DNA of 64,000 bases. Source: Lepidurus packardi (lineage: Eukaryota; Arthropoda; Branchiopoda; Notostraca; Triopsidae). Both the position numbers and the translations under genes were made by a program. Shown piece by piece: positions 49,962 through 64,000 of this stretch (within the stretch, counting starts at the first letter, position 1; every line of letters starts with the position of its first letter). Under the pieces are notes generated by a model. The model worked only from the letters and a program-made list of their open reading frames with translations, was not told the origin of the DNA and made no database searches. Location of the stretch: positions 7,688,001 to 7,752,000 of the forward strand of contig JAKZAN010000005.1 in the NCBI GenBank assembly GCA_023053545.1. The letters are read 5' to 3'.

Positions 49962-50398
49962 GTGTACCCATGGGGTTGTTATTGTTGGGTTTAGTCTAAA
50001 ACTTGGGACCAGAAATGGATTTAGAAGACTATGCTTGGGAGCTATTTTGGTTACTTTTGTTCAGAGTTTAAAACACAATTTTCCGGGAAAACCACTTATA
50101 TAAATGTAATTCATATTTTGAATAAACAAACTGCCTTGTTGGGCTTCTGCAAAATGGTTTTTGTCATTGTCTTTTTGTGTTTGTAGATGCCCATGAACGA
50201 CGAATAAAGGCATTGCCCGGGATTGGCTTCACCTTCGTCAGCTTCTGCCTATGTGTCTTGGCCGATTACTTGCAATGCGCTACTAGTCATAGCTGACGGT
50301 AGGAAAAGCTTTTGAAAACAAGACACGGCAAGTCATATGGGAATCCAAGATGTGTATTTATCGAAATGGGAGCAGAGCCATCACACATTGCCCAGCTA
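49962..50398. other. Convergent 3' region of glycerol kinase and PSMC1
   Basis: 437 bp between two stop codons. It contains the AATAAA at 50121 and otherwise untranslated sequence; no further feature. Confidence 0.55.
50121..50126 (+). terminator. Polyadenylation signal of glycerol kinase
   Basis: AATAAA lies 160 bases after the stop codon and is followed by a T/G-rich stretch (GGTTTTTGTCATTGTC), the usual downstream element. Confidence 0.6.
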
Positions 50399-51945
<1,547 letters not shown>

Positions 51946-52493
51946 TATAACAAATTTCAACACTAGAAACTTCGTTGTTTCAGTGTTGTTATGTCAGGAT
52001 GACTGGATAAATTGACCACTGCAGCTTAAAGGGAAAGTCCTTTATGAGTTGTGTTCCTTTTTTTTACAAATACATCCTTGTACAAGTAAATTAATATACC
52101 AAAATGCTTCAGGATGTATTTTTATATAATGTATAAAACACTGTGCATAGAAAAGCGTTCGTATCTTAAGCATTCATAGTTTAGTATGAATTTAAGCATA
52201 TTTGGGATAGGGATTTTTCCCTGTAAGAAAAGGTTTCCTCCCTCATCAAAATCGTCTTTGTCACTAGATGTCAGGGGTGTTCTGATTGTCCGCCCTTGTT
52301 ACCATGAAAGATCTTCGCAACATCGCCGAAATACCCGAGCTTTTTCGGAAACATAAAGATTTATTCTCAAAGCCTTGACTTATGGATCCAAGAAATGGCA
52401 AGAAAAGAATATAATCCGGCATTTCTTTATAAGAAAGGAATTGCCGAGAAATAAGAAATTGAATTAGATGTTTCAAACTTCGCACTTGCCATC
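51946..52493. other. Intergenic region
   Basis: About 550 bp upstream of PSMC1. No TATA box or coding potential is clear. Confidence 0.5.
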
Positions 52494-52694
52494 ATGAACG
52501 AAGATCAGCAGAAAGCCTTCAAAAAGTATGCTCATGAATGTGTATACGTAGTAGAAGCCAAGTTTAACCAATATTGTAGCGAACCGACACCAGGCAGTGC
52601 GAGAGGCACAGCAAGGGTGAAGCACAGCGGAGAGGAGAGTCGAGTGGGACTATCGAAGACGACGGGAGCAATTGTGCGAGCGCGCGAGATTTGA
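52494..52694 (+). CDS. Possible first exon of the interrupted PHD-like host gene
   Basis: An ATG opens 66 codons (MNEDQQKAFKKYAHECVYVV...). The first about 30 residues look protein-like (charged, one Cys), while the rest becomes low complexity, so a splice donor may lie inside, for example at the GTATAC near 52542. It is co-oriented with the PHD-like exon at 63052. The link between them is inference only. Confidence 0.25.
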   Translation: MNEDQQKAFKKYAHECVYVVEAKFNQYCSEPTPGSARGTARVKHSGEESRVGLSKTTGAIVRAREI

Positions 52695-53073
52695 TAGTTT
52701 CAAATACGAAAGTTAAAGTCCTTAGCCAAAAGTTACTTTTCCTTTCTTCATACGTGCTTTATATAATTAACTTATGTAATCTCCCCATTCCTAAACAGTG
52801 TAAATCGCAATTTACGCTACAATATATATGTTCTAAAAACGCTTCTCATCTTGTCTGAAGATTGATCGGGCTATCTGGTTGCTTTTTTTCTAAGTGATAA
52901 ACATAATAGAGAAGGTTATCGTTTCTTCTTTAAAAAATTAAACATACAGTTGGTAATTATCAAACTTCAGAATTTATGAGTGACATGACAGATCAATTCT
53001 ATCTTTCTTGGAAGATTTTTGACATTTTGATTATCACCAGGCGCATTTATATTTGGCATGTAGAAAGAGTAAG
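52695..53073 (+). other. Host sequence up to the retrotransposon insertion point
   Basis: AT-rich putative intron sequence, then the left copy of a 255-bp duplicated segment (52819-53073). It contains a splice acceptor (ATTATCACCAG) at about 53040 and the first 33 bases of the PHD-like exon, which is cut after AAGAGTAAG by the LTR. Confidence 0.6.
52819..53073 (+). repeat. 255-bp perfect direct repeat, left copy
   Basis: It runs from ACAATATATATGTTC to GTAGAAAGAGTAAG and is identical by eye to 62830-63084. The left copy is followed exactly by the LTR start TGTGGTGTAC. Confidence 0.95.
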
Positions 53074-53219
53074 TGTGGTGTACTTGCTTGAGGCATTAGT
53101 GACGTACACCATTGCCCCGGGCTGACCTGTCATAGGAACTCAACCCTATGACAGGCCGAGTCCGCCCTTGGCCTTTGAGAATACAAGCTTGTTTTGCTAC
53201 TAGCTTAAAATACATTACA
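53074..53219 (+). repeat. 5' LTR of copy 1
   Basis: It starts TGTGGTGTACTTGC and ends AAAATACATTACA. It is identical by eye to the LTR of copy 2 (57577-57722). It contains a perfect 11-bp hairpin (53126-53155). Confidence 0.9.
53126..53155. repeat. LTR hairpin
   Basis: CCTGTCATAGG and CCTATGACAGG form a perfect 11-bp stem with an 8-base loop. The stem is kept in all three LTR copies, including the diverged one at 57452, where only the loop changed. It may shape RNA 3'-end formation or packaging. Confidence 0.8.
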
Positions 53220-53223
53220 AAAG

Positions 53224-53242
53224 TGGCGACGAGGATGGGATT
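53224..53242 (+). promoter_or_regulatory. Primer binding site, tRNA-Ser type
   Basis: TGGCGACGAGGATGGGATT starts four bases after the LTR. It complements the 3' end of a eukaryotic tRNA-Ser(GCU) (…CCAUCCUCGUCG plus CCA) as I recall that tRNA. Serine-tRNA priming is known for mag-type elements. The same site is in copy 2 at 57727. Confidence 0.75.
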
Positions 53243-53381
53243 TCGTGCTATACAATTGAATAGTTGCTATGCCAATTGGAATTGTTGAATTCCGTGATTA
53301 ATTTTAAGTTGAGCCTTAGACTGTGTGTCTTGAAATAAGAGTGTCTCTTTAACTTATCGCTTGAACAGGCTGCATTATACA

Positions 53382-56300
53382 ATGGCAGTGGCAAGTGGGC
53401 GTGGGCGTGACCGCGTCATTGGACATATTGAACATTATACTGCAGATACGCCATGGGAAATTTACATAGAACGCATGGAACAATATTTCTTTGTGAATGG
53501 CGTAGTTGATGACACTGAAAAAAGGGGAATTTTCCTTACCTTGGCTGGACCTTATGCTTGTAAAGTTTTGTGGCAAGTTTGCACCCCTGTAAAGCCTACA
53601 ACAAAGACTTTTGGCGAGATTTGTGAAGCGCTTAGGAAGCATTTCGTTAAACCTACAATCGAAATTGCGGAGCGTTTTCATTTTTATCGTCGTCGTCAAA
53701 AAATGGAAGAATCGTTGCGGGATTACGTTGCTGAGTTGAAAAGCCTGTCGAAAGATTGCAACTTTGGTACTTTCTTGGACTCTGCCCTACGAGATGCCTT
53801 TGTTCTGGGACTAGCGGATTCACGTATCCAGTCGAAGTTATTAGCAGAAGCTTCCTTGGATTTTTCCAAAGCGCTAGCCATTGCATTTTCGCAAGAAACC
53901 GCTACAGCCGAAGCTAAGGAAATTTCAAGCTCGGAAGTACACAAGCTAGAAGTCAAGTCTGGTAAGAAATGTTTTCGTTGTGGGGAACCTACACATTTGG
54001 CGAACAAGTGTCCGCACGTGGACAAAAGTTGCCGGCATTGTGGGAAGAAAGGTCATCTGGCTGCAGTTTGCCGCGAGGCTGAAAGGGATACAGTAAAGTC
54101 GGGGAAACCTAAAGCAGGCCAAACGTCAGACAAACAGAAGAAGAAGTCGGGTTCGAACTCCAATACCTGCTACATGAACGAAAGCCATGAAGACTCGTGC
54201 GATTCGCTGTATGCAATTAGTGGGAAAGGACCAAATCCTTATGTATTGGTTGTGAATATTAATGGTCAACCTTGTACTATGGAGATCGACACGGGGTCAG
54301 CACATTCCGTAATTTCTAAGAAGACCTGGGAAAGATTGAAAACTCCCAAATTGTCTGAACCGGAGCGTCAATTGAGGACGTATGGTGAAGGGAAGCTGCC
54401 GATGTTGGGTCAAATCGTCGTTGATATGGCTGTTCATGGAACGACTAGGAAAGCGAGATTGTTTGTTGTGGATATCAACGGACCGCCGCTCTTTGGAAGA
54501 GATCTCCTGGAGCAGTTTGAATTGGAGTGGAGCCGAGTCTGCAGAATCGCAACGGTTTTGAAGCAAGAAGATATAGCGACGCATTATCCAAAGTTATTTA
54601 AAATGGAGCAAGATGCACCTCCGATTGCGACGGTACATTTGGACTTAAAGACGGGTGCAAGACCGCGTTTTCTACGTCCTCGATCCTTACCTTACGCAGT
54701 TAAGGCTAAAGTCAAAGAAGAGTTAGATCGATTGGAAGCAGCGGGTATCATCCGAAAGGTCATGCATTCCTCTTGGGCGACACCGTTGGTCGTGGTACCG
54801 AAGCCGGGAGGCAAGGTGAGGATTTGCGGAGACTATAAGATGACCGTTAATCCTGAGCTTCTTATTGATCAACACCCTCTTCCGAAACCCAATGATCTGT
54901 TTGCAACGTTAAATGGCGGGAAGCTGTTTTCAAAACTAGATTTGTCACAAGCTTATCTTCAGTTGGAGCTAGATAAGGAATCGCAAGAGTTGACAACTAT
55001 TACGACACCTTGGGGTTTGTTTCAGTATACGCGAATGCCTTACGGAATAGCATCGGCTCCAGCCAAATTTCAGCTAGTTATGGAGAAGCTGCTATGCGAC
55101 CTGCCTTTTACAAAAAACTATTTGGACGACATTTTACTGGCTGGGAAGAATGAAGATGAGCATTGGGAAAATTTAAATCAGCTTTTGGTTCGTCTGCAAG
55201 AAGCCAACGTTAAGCTTGAAGGAAAGAAATGTTACTTTGGAGTGGAAGAAGTACCATTCCTAGGATATGTGGTATCCAAATCCGGATTAAAAAAGGATCC
55301 TGCGAAGATATTAGCCGTCATGGAGGCACCGAGACCGAAGGATGTACGGGATGTCAAGTCCTTCTTAGGGTTAGTCCAATATTACGGGAAGTTTGTACCT
55401 AATCTATCTTCGTTGGCGGAACCCTTAACGAACTTAACTCGCAATTCTGAAGTCTGGCATTGGTCAAGTGAGCAAGAGTCGTCATGGAAGAAACTTAAAA
55501 GCATTCTATCATCAGATGCGGTGCTTGCTCATTACGATCCCGATTTACCACTGAAGATGGAATGCGATGCCTCACCTGTGGGAGTAGGCGCCGTTTTAAC
55601 TCACGTTTTTCCTGACGGATCGGAGAGACCAATTGCGTACGCTTCGAAAACGTTATCGAAGACGGAGCGCATGTACTCACAAATCGACAAAGAAGCTTTG
55701 GCTCTTGTGTTCGGGGTAAAGCGCTTCCATGACTACGTTTACGGAAGAAAATTCATTTTGGTGACGGATCACCGACCTCTGTTAGCCATATTGGGTCCGA
55801 AAATTGGCATTCCACCATTAGCTGCCGCTCGTATGCAACGTTGGGCGTTGCTATTAGCAGCTTACGACTACGACATGCAGTATCGGAAGTCAAGCAGTCA
55901 TGGAAATGCAGATGCTTTATCCAGGAATTCAATCGATTGCGAATTTGAAGATCTAGACTCCGAGATAGCGAGGTGTTACCACGTTGAAGCCGTCGCGAAC
56001 TGTGAATTGGATTTCAACGCAGTAAAAGCAGGCTATGGAAAAGACCCAATTCTTCAGCAAGTTACAAAGAAGTTGCGAAGTGGCTGGTCGCAAGAGGACG
56101 CAAAAGGAGCGCTGCAGCCTTTCCACAGCAAGCGATTTGAGCTAACGATGGAGAAGGACGTTATCCTCTGGAATGGAAGATTGATTATTCCAGAAGCTTT
56201 GAGACCAGCGGTGCTGGATTTGCTGCATGAAAATCATCCTGGAATTATACGGATGAAAGCACTAGCTCGAAGCAGATTTTGGTGGCCCAAAATGGACTCT

Positions 56301-57344
56301 GACATTGAAACAAAAGTAAGTCAATGTTCGTCTTGCAAGTCTGCTGCGAAGAACCCAGTAGCTGTGAAAGATACGACCTGGCCTACACCGAACTTACCTT
56401 TTTACCGGGTGCATGCTGATTACGCGGGTCCAGTGGATGGAAAGATGCTACTGGTAATGGTAGATGCATATTCCAAATGGCCCGAAGTTTTCGTTCTGAA
56501 TGACAACAGGACTTCAAAGACTATTGAAGCGTTCAGGGGAGTATTTGCAAGATTTGGATTACCGTGCGAGCTAGTCACGGACAACGGACCGCAGTTCACT
56601 TCAAAAGAAATGGAGGAATTCGTGAGTAGGAATAGCATTAAGCATCTAATGGGGGCCCCATATCACCCCCAAACTAATGGCTTGGCGGAAAGATTTGTTC
56701 AGACAGTGAAAAATCACCTCTCAAAGTCAACGGAGAACTCTGCAAATTTACAACTGAAAATCCTGAGATTTCTCATGACATACCGAACGACTCCTCATGC
56801 TGTCACAGGGAAGTCCCCTGCTAATATGCTGTTGAACTATCAGCCACGTACGCGGTTAGACCTACTACAGCCAACGAGGAAAGTGGTAACACCACTATGG
56901 AATAATCCCAAATTTGCTGTAGGAGACCAAGTTCTCGTAAGGGATTTTAGATGTCCTATGAAACGGTGGCAGAAGGGAGTAGTTATGAAGCGTATCGGAA
57001 CCGTATTATATGAAGTCCGAGTGGGTTCCATAGTCATGAAGAGACATGTGGACCAAATGCAATTTGATGTAAGCGTGGAGGATGGTACGGTGCCAGTGGA
57101 GATGAAGATTCCGGCTGTTCAAAGGGAAAACATACCAGTTGCTGCTAAGGAAAATTTACCCATTAAAGAAGTGGAGGCACAAGCAAGAGAAGAACCTCCT
57201 ATTCCTGTTCCAGTAACGGTCCCTGACCAAGTGTCAAGTCCTCAAGAGCCGCAAGAATCATCAGTCAGTAATCCGCAAGAGTTACGCCGCTCAAGCAGAT
57301 TAAGGAAGAGTAATAAAGATCGTGCGTATGTATATGATGACTGA
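53382..57344 (+). CDS. gag-pol: Gag-Pol polyprotein of copy 1
   Basis: A single open frame of 1,320 codons; the first ATG in good context is at 53382. Gag is residues 1-190. Two CCHC knuckles follow at about 197-210 and 217-230 (CFRCGEPTHLANKC, CRHCGKKGHLAAVC), then the aspartic protease (DTGSAHS, about 303), reverse transcriptase with YLDD (about 581-584), RNase H (ECDASPVGVGA, about 730), and integrase with an HHCC finger (HENHPG ... CSSCK) and catalytic segments HADYAGP, VTDNGPQF and NGLAERF. A Pro/Gln-rich tail ends the protein. Gag and Pol are fused without a frameshift, as in mag-type elements. No stop or frameshift is visible, so the element may be recent or active. Confidence 0.93.
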   Translation: MAVASGRGRDRVIGHIEHYTADTPWEIYIERMEQYFFVNGVVDDTEKRGIFLTLAGPYACKVLWQVCTPVKPTTKTFGEICEALRKHFVKPTIEIAERFHFYRRRQKMEESLRDYVAELKSLSKDCNFGTFLDSALRDAFVLGLADSRIQSKLLAEASLDFSKALAIAFSQETATAEAKEISSSEVHKLEVKSGKKCFRCGEPTHLANKCPHVDKSCRHCGKKGHLAAVCREAERDTVKSGKPKAGQTSDKQKKKSGSNSNTCYMNESHEDSCDSLYAISGKGPNPYVLVVNINGQPCTMEIDTGSAHSVISKKTWERLKTPKLSEPERQLRTYGEGKLPMLGQIVVDMAVHGTTRKARLFVVDINGPPLFGRDLLEQFELEWSRVCRIATVLKQEDIATHYPKLFKMEQDAPPIATVHLDLKTGARPRFLRPRSLPYAVKAKVKEELDRLEAAGIIRKVMHSSWATPLVVVPKPGGKVRICGDYKMTVNPELLIDQHPLPKPNDLFATLNGGKLFSKLDLSQAYLQLELDKESQELTTITTPWGLFQYTRMPYGIASAPAKFQLVMEKLLCDLPFTKNYLDDILLAGKNEDEHWENLNQLLVRLQEANVKLEGKKCYFGVEEVPFLGYVVSKSGLKKDPAKILAVMEAPRPKDVRDVKSFLGLVQYYGKFVPNLSSLAEPLTNLTRNSEVWHWSSEQESSWKKLKSILSSDAVLAHYDPDLPLKMECDASPVGVGAVLTHVFPDGSERPIAYASKTLSKTERMYSQIDKEALALVFGVKRFHDYVYGRKFILVTDHRPLLAILGPKIGIPPLAAARMQRWALLLAAYDYDMQYRKSSSHGNADALSRNSIDCEFEDLDSEIARCYHVEAVANCELDFNAVKAGYGKDPILQQVTKKLRSGWSQEDAKGALQPFHSKRFELTMEKDVILWNGRLIIPEALRPAVLDLLHENHPGIIRMKALARSRFWWPKMDSDIETKVSQCSSCKSAAKNPVAVKDTTWPTPNLPFYRVHADYAGPVDGKMLLVMVDAYSKWPEVFVLNDNRTSKTIEAFRGVFARFGLPCELVTDNGPQFTSKEMEEFVSRNSIKHLMGAPYHPQTNGLAERFVQTVKNHLSKSTENSANLQLKILRFLMTYRTTPHAVTGKSPANMLLNYQPRTRLDLLQPTRKVVTPLWNNPKFAVGDQVLVRDFRCPMKRWQKGVVMKRIGTVLYEVRVGSIVMKRHVDQMQFDVSVEDGTVPVEMKIPAVQRENIPVAAKENLPIKEVEAQAREEPPIPVPVTVPDQVSSPQEPQESSVSNPQELRRSSRLRKSNKDRAYVYDD

Positions 57345-57451
57345 CGTAAAAAATGATTGTCCTGTTATTTCATGGAGTTTCGTGGCTTTAGCCTGTGTTA
57401 AATGTTGGTGATGGGTTGGTGATGGGATTTCTAAAGTAAGAGGGAAGGAAT
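57345..57451 (+). promoter_or_regulatory. 3' untranslated region with polypurine tract
   Basis: A short stretch after the gag-pol stop ending in AAGTAAGAGGGAAGGAA (57434-57450), which primes plus-strand synthesis directly before the 3' LTR. Confidence 0.75.
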
Positions 57452-57576
57452 TGTGGTGTACTTGCTTGAGGCATTAGTGACGTACACCATTGCCCCGGGC
57501 TGACCTGTCATAGGAGCTCAACCCTATGACAGGGCCAGTCCGCCCTTGGCCTTAGAGAATACAAAGCTGTGAAACT
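57452..57576 (+). repeat. Partial, diverged 3' LTR of copy 1
   Basis: It matches the first about 110 bases of the 146-bp LTR with several changes (GAGCTC for GAACTC, GGGCCAG for GGCCGAG, CTTAGAG for CTTTGAG). It then diverges as AAAGCTGTGAAACT and stops where the next LTR begins. It lacks the normal LTR 3' end. Confidence 0.85.
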
Positions 57577-60034
57577 TGTGGTGTACTTGCTTGAGGCATT
57601 AGTGACGTACACCATTGCCCCGGGCTGACCTGTCATAGGAACTCAACCCTATGACAGGCCGAGTCCGCCCTTGGCCTTTGAGAATACAAGCTTGTTTTGC
57701 TACTAGCTTAAAATACATTACAAAAGTGGCGACGAGGATGGGATTTCGTGCTATACAATTGAATAGTTGCTATGCCAATTGGAATTGTTGAATTCCGTGA
57801 TTAATTTTAAGTTGAGCCTTAGACTGTGTGTCTTGAAATAAGAGTGTCTCTTTAACTTATCGCTTGAACAGGCTGCATTATACAATGGCAGTGGCAAGTG
57901 GGCGTGGGCGTGACCGCGTCATTGGACATATTGAACATTATACTGCAGATACGCCATGGGAAATTTACATAGAACGCATGGAACAATATTTCTTTGTGAA
58001 TGGCGTAGTTGATGACACTGAAAAAAGGGGAATTTTCCTTACCTTGGCTGGACCTTATGCTTGTAAAGTTTTGTGGCAAGTTTGCACCCCTGTAAAGCCT
58101 ACAACAAAGACTTTTGGCGAGATTTGTGAAGCGCTTAGGAAGCATTTCGTTAAACCTACAATCGAAATTGCGGAGCGTTTTCATTTTTATCGTCGTCGTC
58201 AAAAAATGGAAGAATCGTTGCGGGATTACGTTGCTGAGTTGAAAAGCCTGTCGAAAGATTGCAACTTTGGTACTTTCTTGGACTCTGCCCTACGAGATGC
58301 CTTTGTTCTGGGACTAGCGGATTCACGTATCCAGTCGAAGTTATTAGCAGAAGCTTCCTTGGATTTTTCCAAAGCGCTAGCCATTGCATTTTCGCAAGAA
58401 ACCGCTACAGCCGAAGCTAAGGAAATTTCAAGCTCGGAAGTACACAAGCTAGAAGTCAAGTCTGGTAAGAAATGTTTTCGTTGTGGGGAACCTACACATT
58501 TGGCGAACAAGTGTCCGCACGTGGACAAAAGTTGCCGGCATTGTGGGAAGAAAGGTCATCTGGCTGCAGTTTGCCGCGAGGCTGAAAGGGATACAGTAAA
58601 GTCGGGGAAACCTAAAGCAGGCCAAACGTCAGACAAACAGAAGAAGAAGTCGGGTTCGAACTCCAATACCTGCTACATGAACGAAAGCCATGAAGACTCG
58701 TGCGATTCGCTGTATGCAATTAGTGGGAAAGGACCAAATCCTTATGTATTGGTTGTGAATATTAATGGTCAACCTTGTACTATGGAGATCGACACGGGGT
58801 CAGCACATTCCGTAATTTCTAAGAAGACCTGGGAAAGATTGAAAACTCCCAAATTGTCTGAACCGGAGCGTCAATTGAGGACGTATGGTGAAGGGAAGCT
58901 GCCGATGTTGGGTCAAATCGTCGTTGATATGGCTGTTCATGGAACGACTAGGAAAGCGAGATTGTTTGTTGTGGATATCAACGGACCGCCGCTCTTTGGA
59001 AGAGATCTCCTGGAGCAGTTTGAATTGGAGTGGAGCCGAGTCTGCAGAATCGCAACGGTTTTGAAGCAAGAAGATATAGCGACGCATTATCCAAAGTTAT
59101 TTAAAATGGAGCAAGATGCACCTCCGATTGCGACGGTACATTTGGACTTAAAGACGGGTGCAAGACCGCGTTTTCTACGTCCTCGATCCTTACCTTACGC
59201 AGTTAAGGCTAAAGTCAAAGAAGAGTTAGATCGATTGGAAGCAGCGGGTATCATCCGGAAGGTCATGCATTCCTCTTGGGCGACACCGTTGGTCGTGGTA
59301 CCGAAGCCGGGAGGCAAGGTGAGGATTTGTGGAGACTATAAGATGACCGTTAATCCTGAGCTTCTTATTGATCAACACCCTCTTCCGAAACCCAATGATC
59401 TGTTTGCAACGTTAAATGGCGGGAAGCTGTTTTCAAAACTAGATTTGTCACAAGCTTATCTTCAGTTGGAGCTAGATAAGGAATCGCAAGAGTTGACAAC
59501 TATTACGACACCTTGGGGTTTGTTTCAGTATACGCGAATGCCTTACGGAATAGCATCGGCTCCAGCCAAATTTCAGCTAGTTATGGAGAAGCTGCTATGC
59601 GACCTGCCTTTTACAAAAAACTATTTGGACGACATTTTACTGGCTGGGAAGAATGAAGATGAGCATTGGGAAAATTTAAATCAGCTTTTGGTTCGTCTGC
59701 AAGAAGCCAACGTTAAGCTTGAAGGAAAGAAATGTCACTTTGGAGTGGAAGAAGTACCATTCCTAGGATATGTGGTATCCAAATCCGGATTAAAAAAGGA
59801 TCCTGCGAAGATATTAGCCGTCGTGGAGGCACCGAGACCGAAGGATGTACGGGATGTCAAATCCTTCTTAGGGTTAGTCCAATATTACGGGAAGTTTGTA
59901 CCTAATCTATCTTCGTTGGCGGAACCCTTAACGAAGTTAACTCGCAATTCTGAAGTCTGGCATTGGTCAAGTGAGCAAGAGTCGTCATGGAAGAAACTTA
60001 AAGGCATTCTATCATCAGATGCGGTGCTTGCTCA
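57577..60034 (+). mobile_element. mag-like retrotransposon copy 2, 3'-truncated
   Basis: A complete LTR (57577-57722), primer site and leader are followed by gag-pol up to the start of RNase H. It then breaks off after GTGCTTGCTCA into 33 bases of unrelated sequence. It has no 3' LTR. Confidence 0.92.
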
Positions 60035-60089
60035 ATTTTCTGTAGCTAGTTGCCTCGAGCATTTTCATAGACTGTGTGTCTTGAAATAA
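57885..60089 (+). pseudogene. gag-pol: Truncated gag-pol of copy 2
   Basis: An open frame of 734 codons. The first 714 or so match copy 1 (gag, zinc knuckles, protease, reverse transcriptase with YLDD intact). It then ends in about 20 unrelated residues before a stop. RNase H and integrase are missing, so it cannot move on its own. Compared with copy 1 it is identical up to about 59257 and carries several substitutions after that. Confidence 0.9.
60035..60067 (+). other. 33-bp filler between copies 2 and 3
   Basis: ATTTTCTGTAGCTAGTTGCC and 13 more bases match neither retrotransposon copy at these positions. Filler DNA of this kind is a mark of end-joining repair. Confidence 0.7.
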
Positions 60090-62829
60090 GAGTGTCTCTT
60101 TAACTTATCGCTTGAACAGTCTGCATTATACAATGGCAGTGGCAAGTGGGCGTGGGCGTGACCGCGTCATTGGACATATTGAACATTATACTGCAGATAC
60201 GCCATGGGAAATTTACATAGAACGCATGGAACAATATTTCTTTGTGAATGGCGTAGTTGATGACACTGAAAAAAGGGGAATTTTCCTTACATTGGCTGGA
60301 CCTTATGCTTGTAAAGTTTTGTGGCAAGTTTGCACCCCTGTAAAGCCTACAACAAAGACTTTTGGCGAGATTTGTGAAGCGCTTAGGAAGCATTTCGTTA
60401 AACCTACAATCGAAATTGCGGAGCGTTTTCATTTTTATCGTCGTCGTCAAAAAATGGAAGAATCGTTGCGGGATTACGTTGCTGAGTTGAAAAGCCTGTC
60501 GAAAGATTGCAACTTTGGTACTTTCTTGGACTCTGCCCTACGAGATGCCTTTGTTCTGGGACTAGCGGATTCACGTATCCAGTCGAAGTTATTAGCAGAA
60601 GCTTCCTTGGATTTTTCCAAAGCGCTAGCCATTGCATTTTCGCAAGAAACCGCTACAGCCGAAGCTAAGGAAATTTCAAGCTCGGAAGTACACAAGCTAG
60701 AAGTCAAGTCTGGTAAGAAATGTTTTCGTTGTGGGGAACCTACACATTTGGCGAACAAGTGTCCGCACGTGGACAAAAGTTGCCGGCACTGTGGGAAGAA
60801 AGGTCATCTGGCTGCAGTTTGCCGCGAGGCTGAAAGGGATACAGTAAAGTCGGGGAAACCTAAAGCAGGCCAAACGTCAGACAAACAGAAGAGGAAGTCG
60901 GGTTCGAACTCCCATACCTGCTACATGAACGAAAGCCATGAAGACTCGTGCGATTCGCTGTATGCAATTAGCGGGAAAGGACCAAATCCTTATGTATTGG
61001 TTGTGAATATTAATGGTCAACCTTGTACCATGGAGATTGACACGGGGTCAGCACATTCCGTAATTTCTAAGAAGACCTGGGAAAGATTGAAAACTCCCAA
61101 ATTGTCTGAACCGGAGCGTCAATTGAGGACGTATGGTGAAGGGAAGCTGCCGATGTTGGGTCAAATCGTCGTTGATATGGCTGTTCATGGAACGACTAGG
61201 AAAGCGAGATTGTTTGTTGTGGATATCAACGGACCGCCGCTCTTTGGAAGAGATCTCCTGGAGCAGTTTGAATTGGAGTGGAGCCGAGTCTGCAGAATCG
61301 CAACGGTTTTGAAGCAAGAAGATATAGCGACGCATTATCCAAAGTTATTTAAAATGGAGCAAGATGCACCTCCGATTGCGACGGTACATTTGGACTTAAA
61401 GACGGGTGCAAGACCGCGTTTTCTACGTCCTCGATCCTTACCTTACGCAGTTAAGGCTAAAGTCAAAGAAGAGTTAGATCGATTGGAAGCAGCGGGTATC
61501 ATCCGAAAGGTCATGCATTCCTCTTGGGCGACACCGTTGGTCGTGGTACCGAAGCCGGGAGGCAAGGTGAGGATTTGCGGAGACTATAAGATGACCGTTA
61601 ATCCTGAGCTTCTTATTGATCAACACCCTCTTCCGAAACCCAATGATCTGTTTGCAACGTTAAATGGCGGGAAGCTGTTTCCAAAACTAGATTTGTCACA
61701 AGCTTATCTTCAGTTGGAGCTAGATAAGGAATCGCAAGAGTTGACAACTATTACGACACCTTGGGGTTTGTTTCAGTATACGCGAATGCCTTACGGAATA
61801 GCATCGGCTCCAGCCAAATTTCAGCTAGTTATGGAGAAGCTGCTATGCGACCTGCCTTTTACAAAAAACTATTTGGACGACATTTTACTGGCTGGGAAGA
61901 ATGAAGATGAGCATTGGGAAAATTTAAATCAGCTTTTGGTTCGTCTGCAAGAAGCCAACGTTAAGCTTGAAGGAAAGAAATGTTACTTTGGAGTGGAAGA
62001 AGTACCATTCCTAGGATATGTGGTATCCAAATCCGGATTAAAAAAGGATCCTGCGAAGATATTAGCCGTCATGGAGGCACCGAGACCGAAGGATGTACGG
62101 GATGTCAAGTCCTTCTTAGGGTTAGTCCAATATTACGGGAAGTTTGTACCTAATCTATCTTCGTTGGCGGAACCCTTAACGAACTTAACTCGCAATTCTG
62201 AAGTCTGGCATTGGTCAAGTGAGCAAGAGTCGTCATGGAAGAAACTTAAAAGCATTCTATCATCAGATGCGGTGCTTGCTCATTACGATCCCGATTTACC
62301 ACTGAAGATGGAATGCGATGCCTCACCTGTGGGAGTAGGCGCCGTTTTAACTCACGTTTTTCCTGACGGATCGGAGAGACCAATTGCGTACGCTTCGAAA
62401 ACGTTATCGAAGACGGAGCGCATGTACTCACAAATCGACAAAGAAGCTTTGGCTCTTGTGTTCGGGGTAAAGCGCTTCCATGACTACGTTTACGGAAGAA
62501 AATTCATTTTGGTGACGGATCACCGACCTCTGTTAGCCATATTGGGTCCGAAAATTGGCATTCCACCATTAGCTGCCGCTCGTATGCAACGTTGGGCGTT
62601 GCTATTAGCAGCTTACGACTACGACATGCAGTATCGGAAGTCAAGCAGTCATGGAAATGCAGATGCTTTATCCAGGAATTCAATCGATTGCGAATTTGAA
62701 GATCTAGACTCCGAGATAGCGAGGTGTTACCACGTTGAAGCCGTCGCGAACTGTGAATTGGATTTCAACGCAGTAAAAGCAGGCTATGGAAAAGACCCAA
62801 TTCTTCAGCAAGTTACAAAGAAGTTGCGA
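60068..62829 (+). mobile_element. mag-like retrotransposon copy 3, truncated at both ends
   Basis: It begins inside the leader (TAGACTGTGTGTCTTGAAAT), so it lacks LTR and primer site, and ends after GTTACAAAGAAGTTGCGA, just past RNase H. Host sequence follows immediately. Confidence 0.92.
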
Positions 62830-62847
62830 ACAATATATATGTTCTAA
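60133..62847 (+). pseudogene. gag-pol: Truncated gag-pol of copy 3
   Basis: An open frame of 904 codons covering gag, zinc knuckles, protease, reverse transcriptase and RNase H. It ends with five host-derived residues (TIYMF). Integrase is absent. Differences from copy 1 cluster in the gag/protease half; the later half is identical except one Ser-to-Pro change in LFSKLDLS. Confidence 0.9.
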
Positions 62848-63084
62848 AAACGCTTCTCATCTTGTCTGAAGATTGATCGGGCTATCTGGTTGCTTTTTTT
62901 CTAAGTGATAAACATAATAGAGAAGGTTATCGTTTCTTCTTTAAAAAATTAAACATACAGTTGGTAATTATCAAACTTCAGAATTTATGAGTGACATGAC
63001 AGATCAATTCTATCTTTCTTGGAAGATTTTTGACATTTTGATTATCACCAGGCGCATTTATATTTGGCATGTAGAAAGAGTAAG
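62830..63084 (+). repeat. 255-bp perfect direct repeat, right copy
   Basis: Identical to 52819-53073. Here it continues without interruption into CACAAAAGATTTCG, i.e. it looks like the empty insertion site. Confidence 0.95.
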
Positions 63085-63270
63085 CACAAAAGATTTCGTT
63101 ATAGCAAGCGAAACGATCCTGATGACGACCTTAATGATATTCATTGGGTTTATTGCGCTATGTGCAAATCTTGGTTTCATGTAACTTGCGCTCACAGCAG
63201 TAAACAGCATCCAGGTTTATGCCTACGTAATATACCAATTCACGACTTGCATGATATTCAGTATTTATAA
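63052..63270 (+). CDS. Terminal exon of a PHD-finger-like host gene (empty-site copy)
   Basis: After the acceptor ATTATCACCAG, the frame reads AHLYLACRKSKHKRFRYSKR, an acidic DPDDDLNDI stretch, then WVYCAMCKSWFHVTC, and stops at 63270. The last motif is the second half of a PHD finger (W-x-x-C-x-x-C-x-x-W-F-H-x-x-C). The first zinc-binding Cys pair is not in this exon, so it would come from an upstream exon, or the finger is incomplete. The left, interrupted copy of this exon starts at 53041. No full gene can be built because upstream exons are not identified. PHD fingers usually read histone tails; they also occur in some retroelement proteins. Confidence 0.5.
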   Translation, partial: AHLYLACRKSKHKRFRYSKRNDPDDDLNDIHWVYCAMCKSWFHVTCAHSSKQHPGLCLRNIPIHDLHDIQYL

Positions 63271-63706
63271 TGCCTCGTCTTTGTGTTCATGAAAGGGACA
63301 ATGTAGTATATTTTATTTGCATTTGATTTGACTTTGACTTTGCATTTGATTGCCTTGCTCATATAGGTTTGTAAGTAGCATAGTCGTTAGTTTAGTAAGA
63401 ACTTATAGTCTGACTATAATTCACACATGCCTTTTTGTGATAGTATGCTTTGCATTTTGCGATTTAAACTTTCCAAAGTCTACTAGTTACATCAGCAGTA
63501 TTCAGCAAAGATTCGTACTGTGATTTTCTTGTTTCCGAACAGTCTGCTAGTTCTATTAGTGTTGGGCGGCCCTATGCCCGTGTTTCTGACAGGAATTGCA
63601 GCGGCCACGGAGCGTCTACGACAATACAAGTAATCAGAAGCAATTGCGTAAAAATCTTATTACTGACATGTTAGCACTCATCCTGTCTTACAAAATAACC
63701 CCCAGC
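63271..63706. other. Noncoding sequence after the PHD-like exon
   Basis: AT-rich, with a TTTGACTTTGACTTTG stretch near 63330. No gene is supported. Confidence 0.45.
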
Positions 63707-63907
63707 ATGGCCGATTTCACCATTCTTTCCAACAAACTCCTCCCTTTGCCTAAAAAATTTTCACGACTTGTGGACTTGGGTGGAACTGTTGCCGTGACAG
63801 GCGTCATCCTCGGTACCACCGTTTGTGGTGTTATTTCTGCTGGCGTTTCACGATCCTCCGCTACCACCGCACCGTCGTTATCAATCAATTTGTTTCCATC
63901 TAGGTAG
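63707..63907 (+). CDS. Small single-pass membrane protein candidate
   Basis: A 66-codon frame from the ATG at 63707. It starts MADFTILSNKLLPLPKKF and holds a hydrophobic segment of about 22 residues (VAVTGVILGTTVCGVISAGV). It ends Ser/Thr-rich. A good donor (ATCTAG|GTAGTAAG) overlaps the stop, so it may be a first exon reading beyond the window. The size and one membrane helix suggest a small mitochondrial or ER membrane protein, but no family is recognised. Confidence 0.3.
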   Translation: MADFTILSNKLLPLPKKFSRLVDLGGTVAVTGVILGTTVCGVISAGVSRSSATTAPSLSINLFPSR

Positions 63908-64000
63908 TAAGAGAAGAAACCGAATTTTTTATTCAGCGTTCTTATCTTCAGAAATATACAAGGTTTGTAATAATTCCGTAAAAGTAAAAAATAATTTAAA

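Follow-up and report, generated by a model that had tools for sequence, protein, structure and literature searches.

How does a retrotransposon with long terminal repeats (LTRs), whose ordinary insertion leaves a target site duplication (TSD) of 4-6 bp, come to lie between two identical copies of a 255-bp segment? The question is raised by a locus in a 64,000-nucleotide stretch of the Lepidurus packardi genome (the window; contig JAKZAN010000005.1, C4 in our numbering, positions 7688001-7752000, from an assembly of 108.6 Mb in 344 contigs). Coordinates below are window positions, and all features given for the locus are described on the forward (+) strand. The sequence between the two copies is Ty3/gypsy-type, and the best reading of the locus, in our view, is a recent aberrant integration of a gypsy-type element, a reading that we hold to be about evenly balanced between right and wrong. 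We leave the cause undecided between such an integration and a join made during assembly, and lean slightly toward the former.

The left copy of the duplication (52819-53073) agrees with the right copy (62830-63084) at 255 of 255 bases, and on neither side does a single further base match. A chance origin of this identity is excluded (BLAST E 6e-130). In the window and the adjoining 8 kb, a sample too small for a rate, no near-exact duplication other than this pair exists once the gypsy pieces are set aside. Between the copies are 9,756 bp (53074-62829). The final bases of the left copy are the target GTAAG, and the copy stops exactly where an LTR begins (TGTGG at 53074). The right copy adjoins a truncated element, the third in the array, and then reads as the unoccupied site. 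An ordinary insertion has an LTR at each end and a short TSD, whereas the right end here is element interior followed by a 255-bp host copy. As assembled, the locus combines an LTR-host joint that is of integrase type by its sequence, a truncated other end with extra element DNA, and a perfect duplication of host DNA, which together are what an aberrant integration is expected to leave.

The DNA that received the insertion is itself repetitive. Judged by its relatives, it is part of a degenerate (decayed) copy of a MULE DNA transposon and not unique sequence. Genome searches, in which all repeat counts are lower bounds, gave 22 matches to the 255-bp segment: the window's own two at 100%, and 20 others at 77-86%, two of them pieces of one place. 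We took six MULE relatives from these matches for alignment. All six are collinear with 52298-52551, then have 21-24 bases, then the 255-bp segment (from 62830 or 62833), and continue to 63095. Because the six are collinear through the right copy to 63095, the right copy and its continuation represent the unoccupied order. The MULE copy in the window thus has a left part (52298-52551, a 76-78% match to all six relative loci) and a right, empty-site continuation (63085-63324), matched to 63095 in 6/6 relatives and from 63103 or 63105 to 63324 or beyond in 5/6. In one relative, L005, a MULE transposase domain (PF10551, E 5.4e-11) lies in a frame of 731 codons. The window's copy is missing about 1.08-1.09 kb that is present in five of the six relatives just after 63095 (63095-63105); this place and the gypsy target site, to its left, are just 11-21 bp apart, and the sixth relative, L006, is without a match to 63105-63324. 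Since a dispersed family matches nearly the whole 255 bp, we also considered whether the duplication could be the LTR pair of a larger element. We reject this idea: the relatives continue beyond both ends of the segment, and one has the MULE transposase frame.

A preliminary description of this DNA, made from its letters, had reported a perfect 255-bp duplication around an array of about 9.8 kb, with a left copy ending exactly at an LTR start and a right copy that follows a truncated third element and reads on as the empty site. It had also held that 255 bp is far too long for ordinary integration. All of this is borne out by the identity and spacing of the copies, the position of the LTR, the six collinear relatives and the 5-bp TSDs at all three other loci of the family (below). 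What it called host DNA, on the other hand, is not unique sequence: the segment belongs to an old MULE copy with relatives.

The inserted element is, by the order of domains between its LTRs, a Ty3/gypsy-type retrotransposon. The open frame of element 3 (see below) contains gag, CCHC, protease, reverse transcriptase and RNase H domains, and the 3' piece of element 1 adds the integrase that comes next in this order. When the 5' end, the 3' end and an inner stretch of 1,244 bp of the element are used as queries, the family is found at no fewer than four loci: the window, one on contig C38 and two on contig C1. The three loci outside the window have identical LTR pairs of 146-147 bp and are flanked by 5-bp TSDs (GTAAG, TATGT and GAATG). 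The family therefore looks young and looks as if it normally makes 5-bp TSDs. The left joint in the window (53073/53074) also looks integrase-made, because the LTR starts with TG at GTAAG and these 5 bp equal the TSD length at the three other loci. GTAAG is the target at two of the four loci (53069-53073 in the window, and L048 on C38), by chance or through a weak target preference.

The array consists of three pieces of this one retrotransposon in the same orientation, one nearly complete and two fragmentary. Element 1 (53074-57568) begins with TGTGG immediately after GTAAG, as expected of an integrated LTR, and comprises a 5' LTR (53074-53219), an open gag-pol frame (53334-57344) and a 3' LTR that starts at 57452 and is cut after about 117 of its 146-147 bp. 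A filler of 7-8 nucleotides follows (joint 1, 57569-57576), the last T of which may be element 2's own. Element 2 (57577-60034) has a 5' LTR that is complete by homology (57577-57722), is cut off on its 3' side inside pol, and differs from element 1 by 7 mismatches, without gaps, over 2,458 bp. It is separated from element 3 by a second filler of 33 bp (joint 2, 60035-60067), to which a first-look search found no other match in the genome. Element 3 (60068-62829) is cut off on both sides and has no LTR; it corresponds to 53317-56078 of element 1, with 9 mismatches in 2,762 bp. Its junction with the right host copy (joint 3, 62829-62831) has no filler and 0-1 bp of microhomology. Base 62830 (A) could equally be element 3's own, so only 254 bp are certain to come from the sequence of the left copy. 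With filler at both internal joints, neighbouring pieces do not share one LTR as tandem LTR retrotransposons do. This anatomy, its fillers and its truncations are directly visible in the assembled sequence. We also looked for a local template of the 33-bp filler and found none: its longest word shared with 52000-64000 is 8 bases, against a mean of 9.0 for shuffled filler.

The pieces descend from more than one source. Elements 2 and 3, which represent lineages a and b, differ at 16 of 2,182 compared sites (0.73%), and comparisons involving the other loci range over 0.27-0.78%. Over the same sites, elements 2 and 3 share 0 states that are absent from the three other loci. Taken together, the 16 differences and the lack of shared private states indicate two or more templates. 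None of the three other loci has a state that is private to a or to b. Element 1 is a mosaic, a-type on its 5' side and b-type on its 3' side. Of the 16 differing sites, element 1 carries the state of element 2 at the eight leftmost (53369-54287) and that of element 3 at seven of the other eight (54755-55500); the site that departs from this, 54930, is private to element 3. In a permutation test, a pattern of one switch with no more than one exception has a p of 0.003. On either side of the switch the agreement is nearly complete, with 0 differences from element 2 over 1,681 bases (53074-54754) and 1 difference from element 3 over 1,791 bases (54288-56078). These values, along with 0/255 differences between the host copies, indicate that the event is recent and that all of the repeated parts are young. 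The two lineages, the mosaic and the near-zero divergence are all seen directly, and the two-lineage array may be genuine whether or not the right joint is. Element 1 has three private changes (57516, 57534 and 57554) that cluster in its 3' LTR right before joint 1 (57516-57568) and could come from error-prone synthesis or from a poor consensus. In-place duplication of a single insertion was considered as a source of the array and rejected, since the distance between elements 2 and 3 is no smaller than their distances to the other loci and the two have no private state in common.

A second insertion lies at the left edge of the duplication. The segment at 52575-52821 is 247 bp long (TGTAGCG...CGCTACA), has a 4-bp TSD, ATAT, at 52571-52574 and 52822-52825, and is missing from all six MULE relatives (between 52574 and 52822). 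Its genomic matches number 40 if its own is counted; the best of the rest are 90-91% identical over almost its full length and 93% identical over 196 bp. From these features it is read as a solo LTR, of a family other than that of the gypsy element. At its left edge the duplication reaches 3 bp into this solo LTR, its first three bases being the last three of the LTR. Beginning at 62831 (CAATATATATG), the presence or absence of the solo LTR makes no difference to the sequence. The left edge of the duplication is thus, within 0-3 bases, the point at which alleles with and without the solo LTR would converge.

How might one element have produced this arrangement? In the aberrant integration that we favor, the integrase of the Ty3/gypsy-type element would have joined one LTR end, the 5' end of element 1, to the target at GTAAG. 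The second end would not have been joined by integrase and would have lost the last ~30 bp of its LTR. More element DNA from two source lineages (element 2, the 33-bp filler and element 3) would have been appended by host end-joining or template switching, and the ragged end would finally have been connected, by joining or by copying, with host DNA that lies 254-255 bp upstream of the first joint. The segment between the joints would then be duplicated because the second joint lies on the far side of the first. That there was a single event, with these steps in this order and by these enzymes, is what we infer from the anatomy.

Similar outcomes are described in the portion of PMC5041404 drawn on here. 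With integrase inhibitors or mutants, vectors of human immunodeficiency virus 1 (HIV-1) can have one end joined normally and the other, often truncated, joined to extra viral or host DNA; vectors of avian sarcoma-leukosis virus (ASLV) with one bad end are likewise covered. Host DNA at the aberrant end is most commonly duplicated, usually far beyond 5 bp and up to hundreds or thousands. The mechanism proposed there is that the viral 3' end left free serves as a primer for the copying of viral or host DNA in its vicinity, possibly from several templates, and that the intermediate is then resolved by recombination. If the recombination falls beyond the first joint, on its far side, duplication results.

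Several points weigh against an aberrant integration in L. packardi. The duplication starts no more than 3 bp from the edge of the solo LTR, which this mechanism does not predict; the sole answer that it offers is that the only 8-bp AT run in 50000-53073 sits at 52822, that edge. The 33-bp filler shows no local template. A single round of reverse transcription gives identical LTRs. The two LTRs of element 1 differ at 4 of 113 aligned positions, whereas the pairs at the other loci are identical in all three cases, so element 1 did not arise simply from one such round. The homology at the aberrant joint is only 0-1 bp, and short homology is usual, though not constant, at such ends in the cases of PMC5041404. 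Furthermore, the integrase frame of element 1 is open, whereas the aberrant proviruses treated in that source arose with drugged or mutant integrase, and unperturbed infections there gave 0/99 and 0/85 aberrant proviruses.

A more specific version of the same event, which we consider unlikely, is that the array preserves in the germline the DNA that a single retrotransposon particle had made, all of it joined in one failed integration with a 255-bp duplication of the target. Source RNAs a and b, packaged together, would each have left a fragment (elements 2 and 3) beside their own recombinant (element 1).

The chief rival is an assembly join of two haplotypes, one with the solo LTR and the gypsy array and the other with neither. 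The assembler would have run out inside element 3 and resumed on the other haplotype at the convergence point, the shared stretch being the 254-255 bp segment. The preliminary description had listed a haplotype join among its options, and we retain it as a serious possibility, somewhat short of an even chance. It is strengthened by an observation missing from that description, namely that the duplication runs from the edge of one element to the edge of another. The duplicated segment spans exactly from the point where sequences with and without the solo LTR would converge to the gypsy insertion point, and a join of haplotypes alone predicts such a pattern. It also accords with the absence of an ordinary filled right end, LTR-GTAAG-CACAAAAG, from all nine LTR matches found in the genome, and the a/b mosaic and unequal LTRs of element 1 would likewise be expected of a consensus that switches between copies. 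However, the overlap at the join is at most 1 bp, and overlap-based assemblers do not normally make joins with so little overlap. The haplotype without the solo LTR must predate that insertion, yet the two copies differ at 0 of 255 bases. Neither the window nor any locus compared with it contains an N, and no separate empty or filled allele or haplotig was found in the assembly: searches with the 255-bp segment, the left flank and the right flank found only the window at 100%, the next matches being at most 89%. The filler at the other joints also argues against a join. If the locus is nonetheless an artifact of this kind, it carries a warning, since a "duplication" that ends at the edges of two different insertions is the signature expected of a haplotype switch.

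Two further options of the preliminary description place the rearrangement in the chromosome itself. In one, a broken filled chromatid was end-joined to an empty homologue, or to a sister, broken 254-255 bp upstream. This would give the same final order, and microhomology of 0-1 bp, as at 62829/62831, is typical of end-joining. It is improbable in our estimation, given that it needs a separate origin for the two-lineage array with its filler joints, in addition to two breaks on two molecules. In the other, complementary DNA (cDNA) of the element was captured at a break with long staggered ends that were filled in around the array, to which we assign only a slight chance. A stagger of 255 bases is long, and a perfect processed LTR end is present at GTAAG though capture does not need one. 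The truncated pieces, several in one place, resemble the mouse zygote cases of PMC4516963, but the legend to Figure 2 of that paper describes insertions without LTRs and TSDs, with a 4-bp TSD in one panel. Both options are possible, as had been proposed, but they fit less well than a one-ended integration, which had not been listed, given a left LTR end that looks integrase-made and an array of two lineages with filler. That account had been drawn up without the MULE identity of the target, the solo LTR at the left edge, the two lineages with their fillers, and the normal state of the three other loci.

The surroundings of the locus contain a duplication of a different kind. On either side of the MULE/gypsy region there is a proteasome ATPase-like gene (50243-52019, and 64128-65911, which is L065 128-1911), presumably PSMC1/Rpt2-like, and the two copies are 92.8% identical. 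The left copy has proteasomal ATPase and AAA domains (Pfam). Among the 17 blocks of 100 columns into which the pair can be divided, identity is 90-100% in 14 and 75-85% in the other 3, which lie in the intron or at the edges. With this distribution the pair looks like an old tandem gene duplication and not a haplotype artifact, and on this pattern we reject a false haplotype duplication of the wider region. Elsewhere in the genome there are 41 matches to COX1 (C6:697216-698424 and other places), most of them with in-frame TGA and seemingly nuclear mitochondrial copies; three matches without stops, on contigs C52, C214 and C43, may be bacterial. One COX1-like nuclear copy can be read with the invertebrate mitochondrial code and appears to resemble arthropod sequence.

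The locus does not, in our view, represent a system of a new kind. Provided that it is real, it is a natural, heritable instance of an integration failure that is already known: damage done half by integrase and half by host repair, which leaves a long target duplication and a multi-copy array. Such damage is familiar mainly from retroviral vectors in cultured cells. A real event would also mean that one landing can bring in two source templates along with their recombinant. We recognized no natural gypsy case with a long target duplication in the literature searched, mostly by titles and abstract openings, and one may still be in print.

Three known systems offer comparisons, each limited here to the parts of the cited papers that were consulted. 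Like the tandem LTR retrotransposons of rice and other plants (PMC11899658), the array has several gypsy elements in a row in the same orientation; unlike them, with their shared internal LTRs and TSD-flanked arrays, it has truncated units, filler joints and no shared LTRs. Captures of retrotransposon cDNA at double-strand breaks in mouse zygotes (PMC4516963) are similar in their truncated pieces, end to end in one case, and in their scant microhomology, whereas the L. packardi locus has a complete left LTR at a 5-bp-type target and a flanking duplication of 255 bp. Aberrant retroviral integration (PMC5041404) shares with it a normal LTR-host joint, a truncated other end, appended element DNA and a far-side duplication of hundreds of bp of host DNA. 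The L. packardi case differs from those in that the element is endogenous and gypsy-type and is known from a genome assembly alone, in that two lineages occur in one array, and in its fillers of 7-8 and 33 bp and the homology of 0-1 bp at its last joint.

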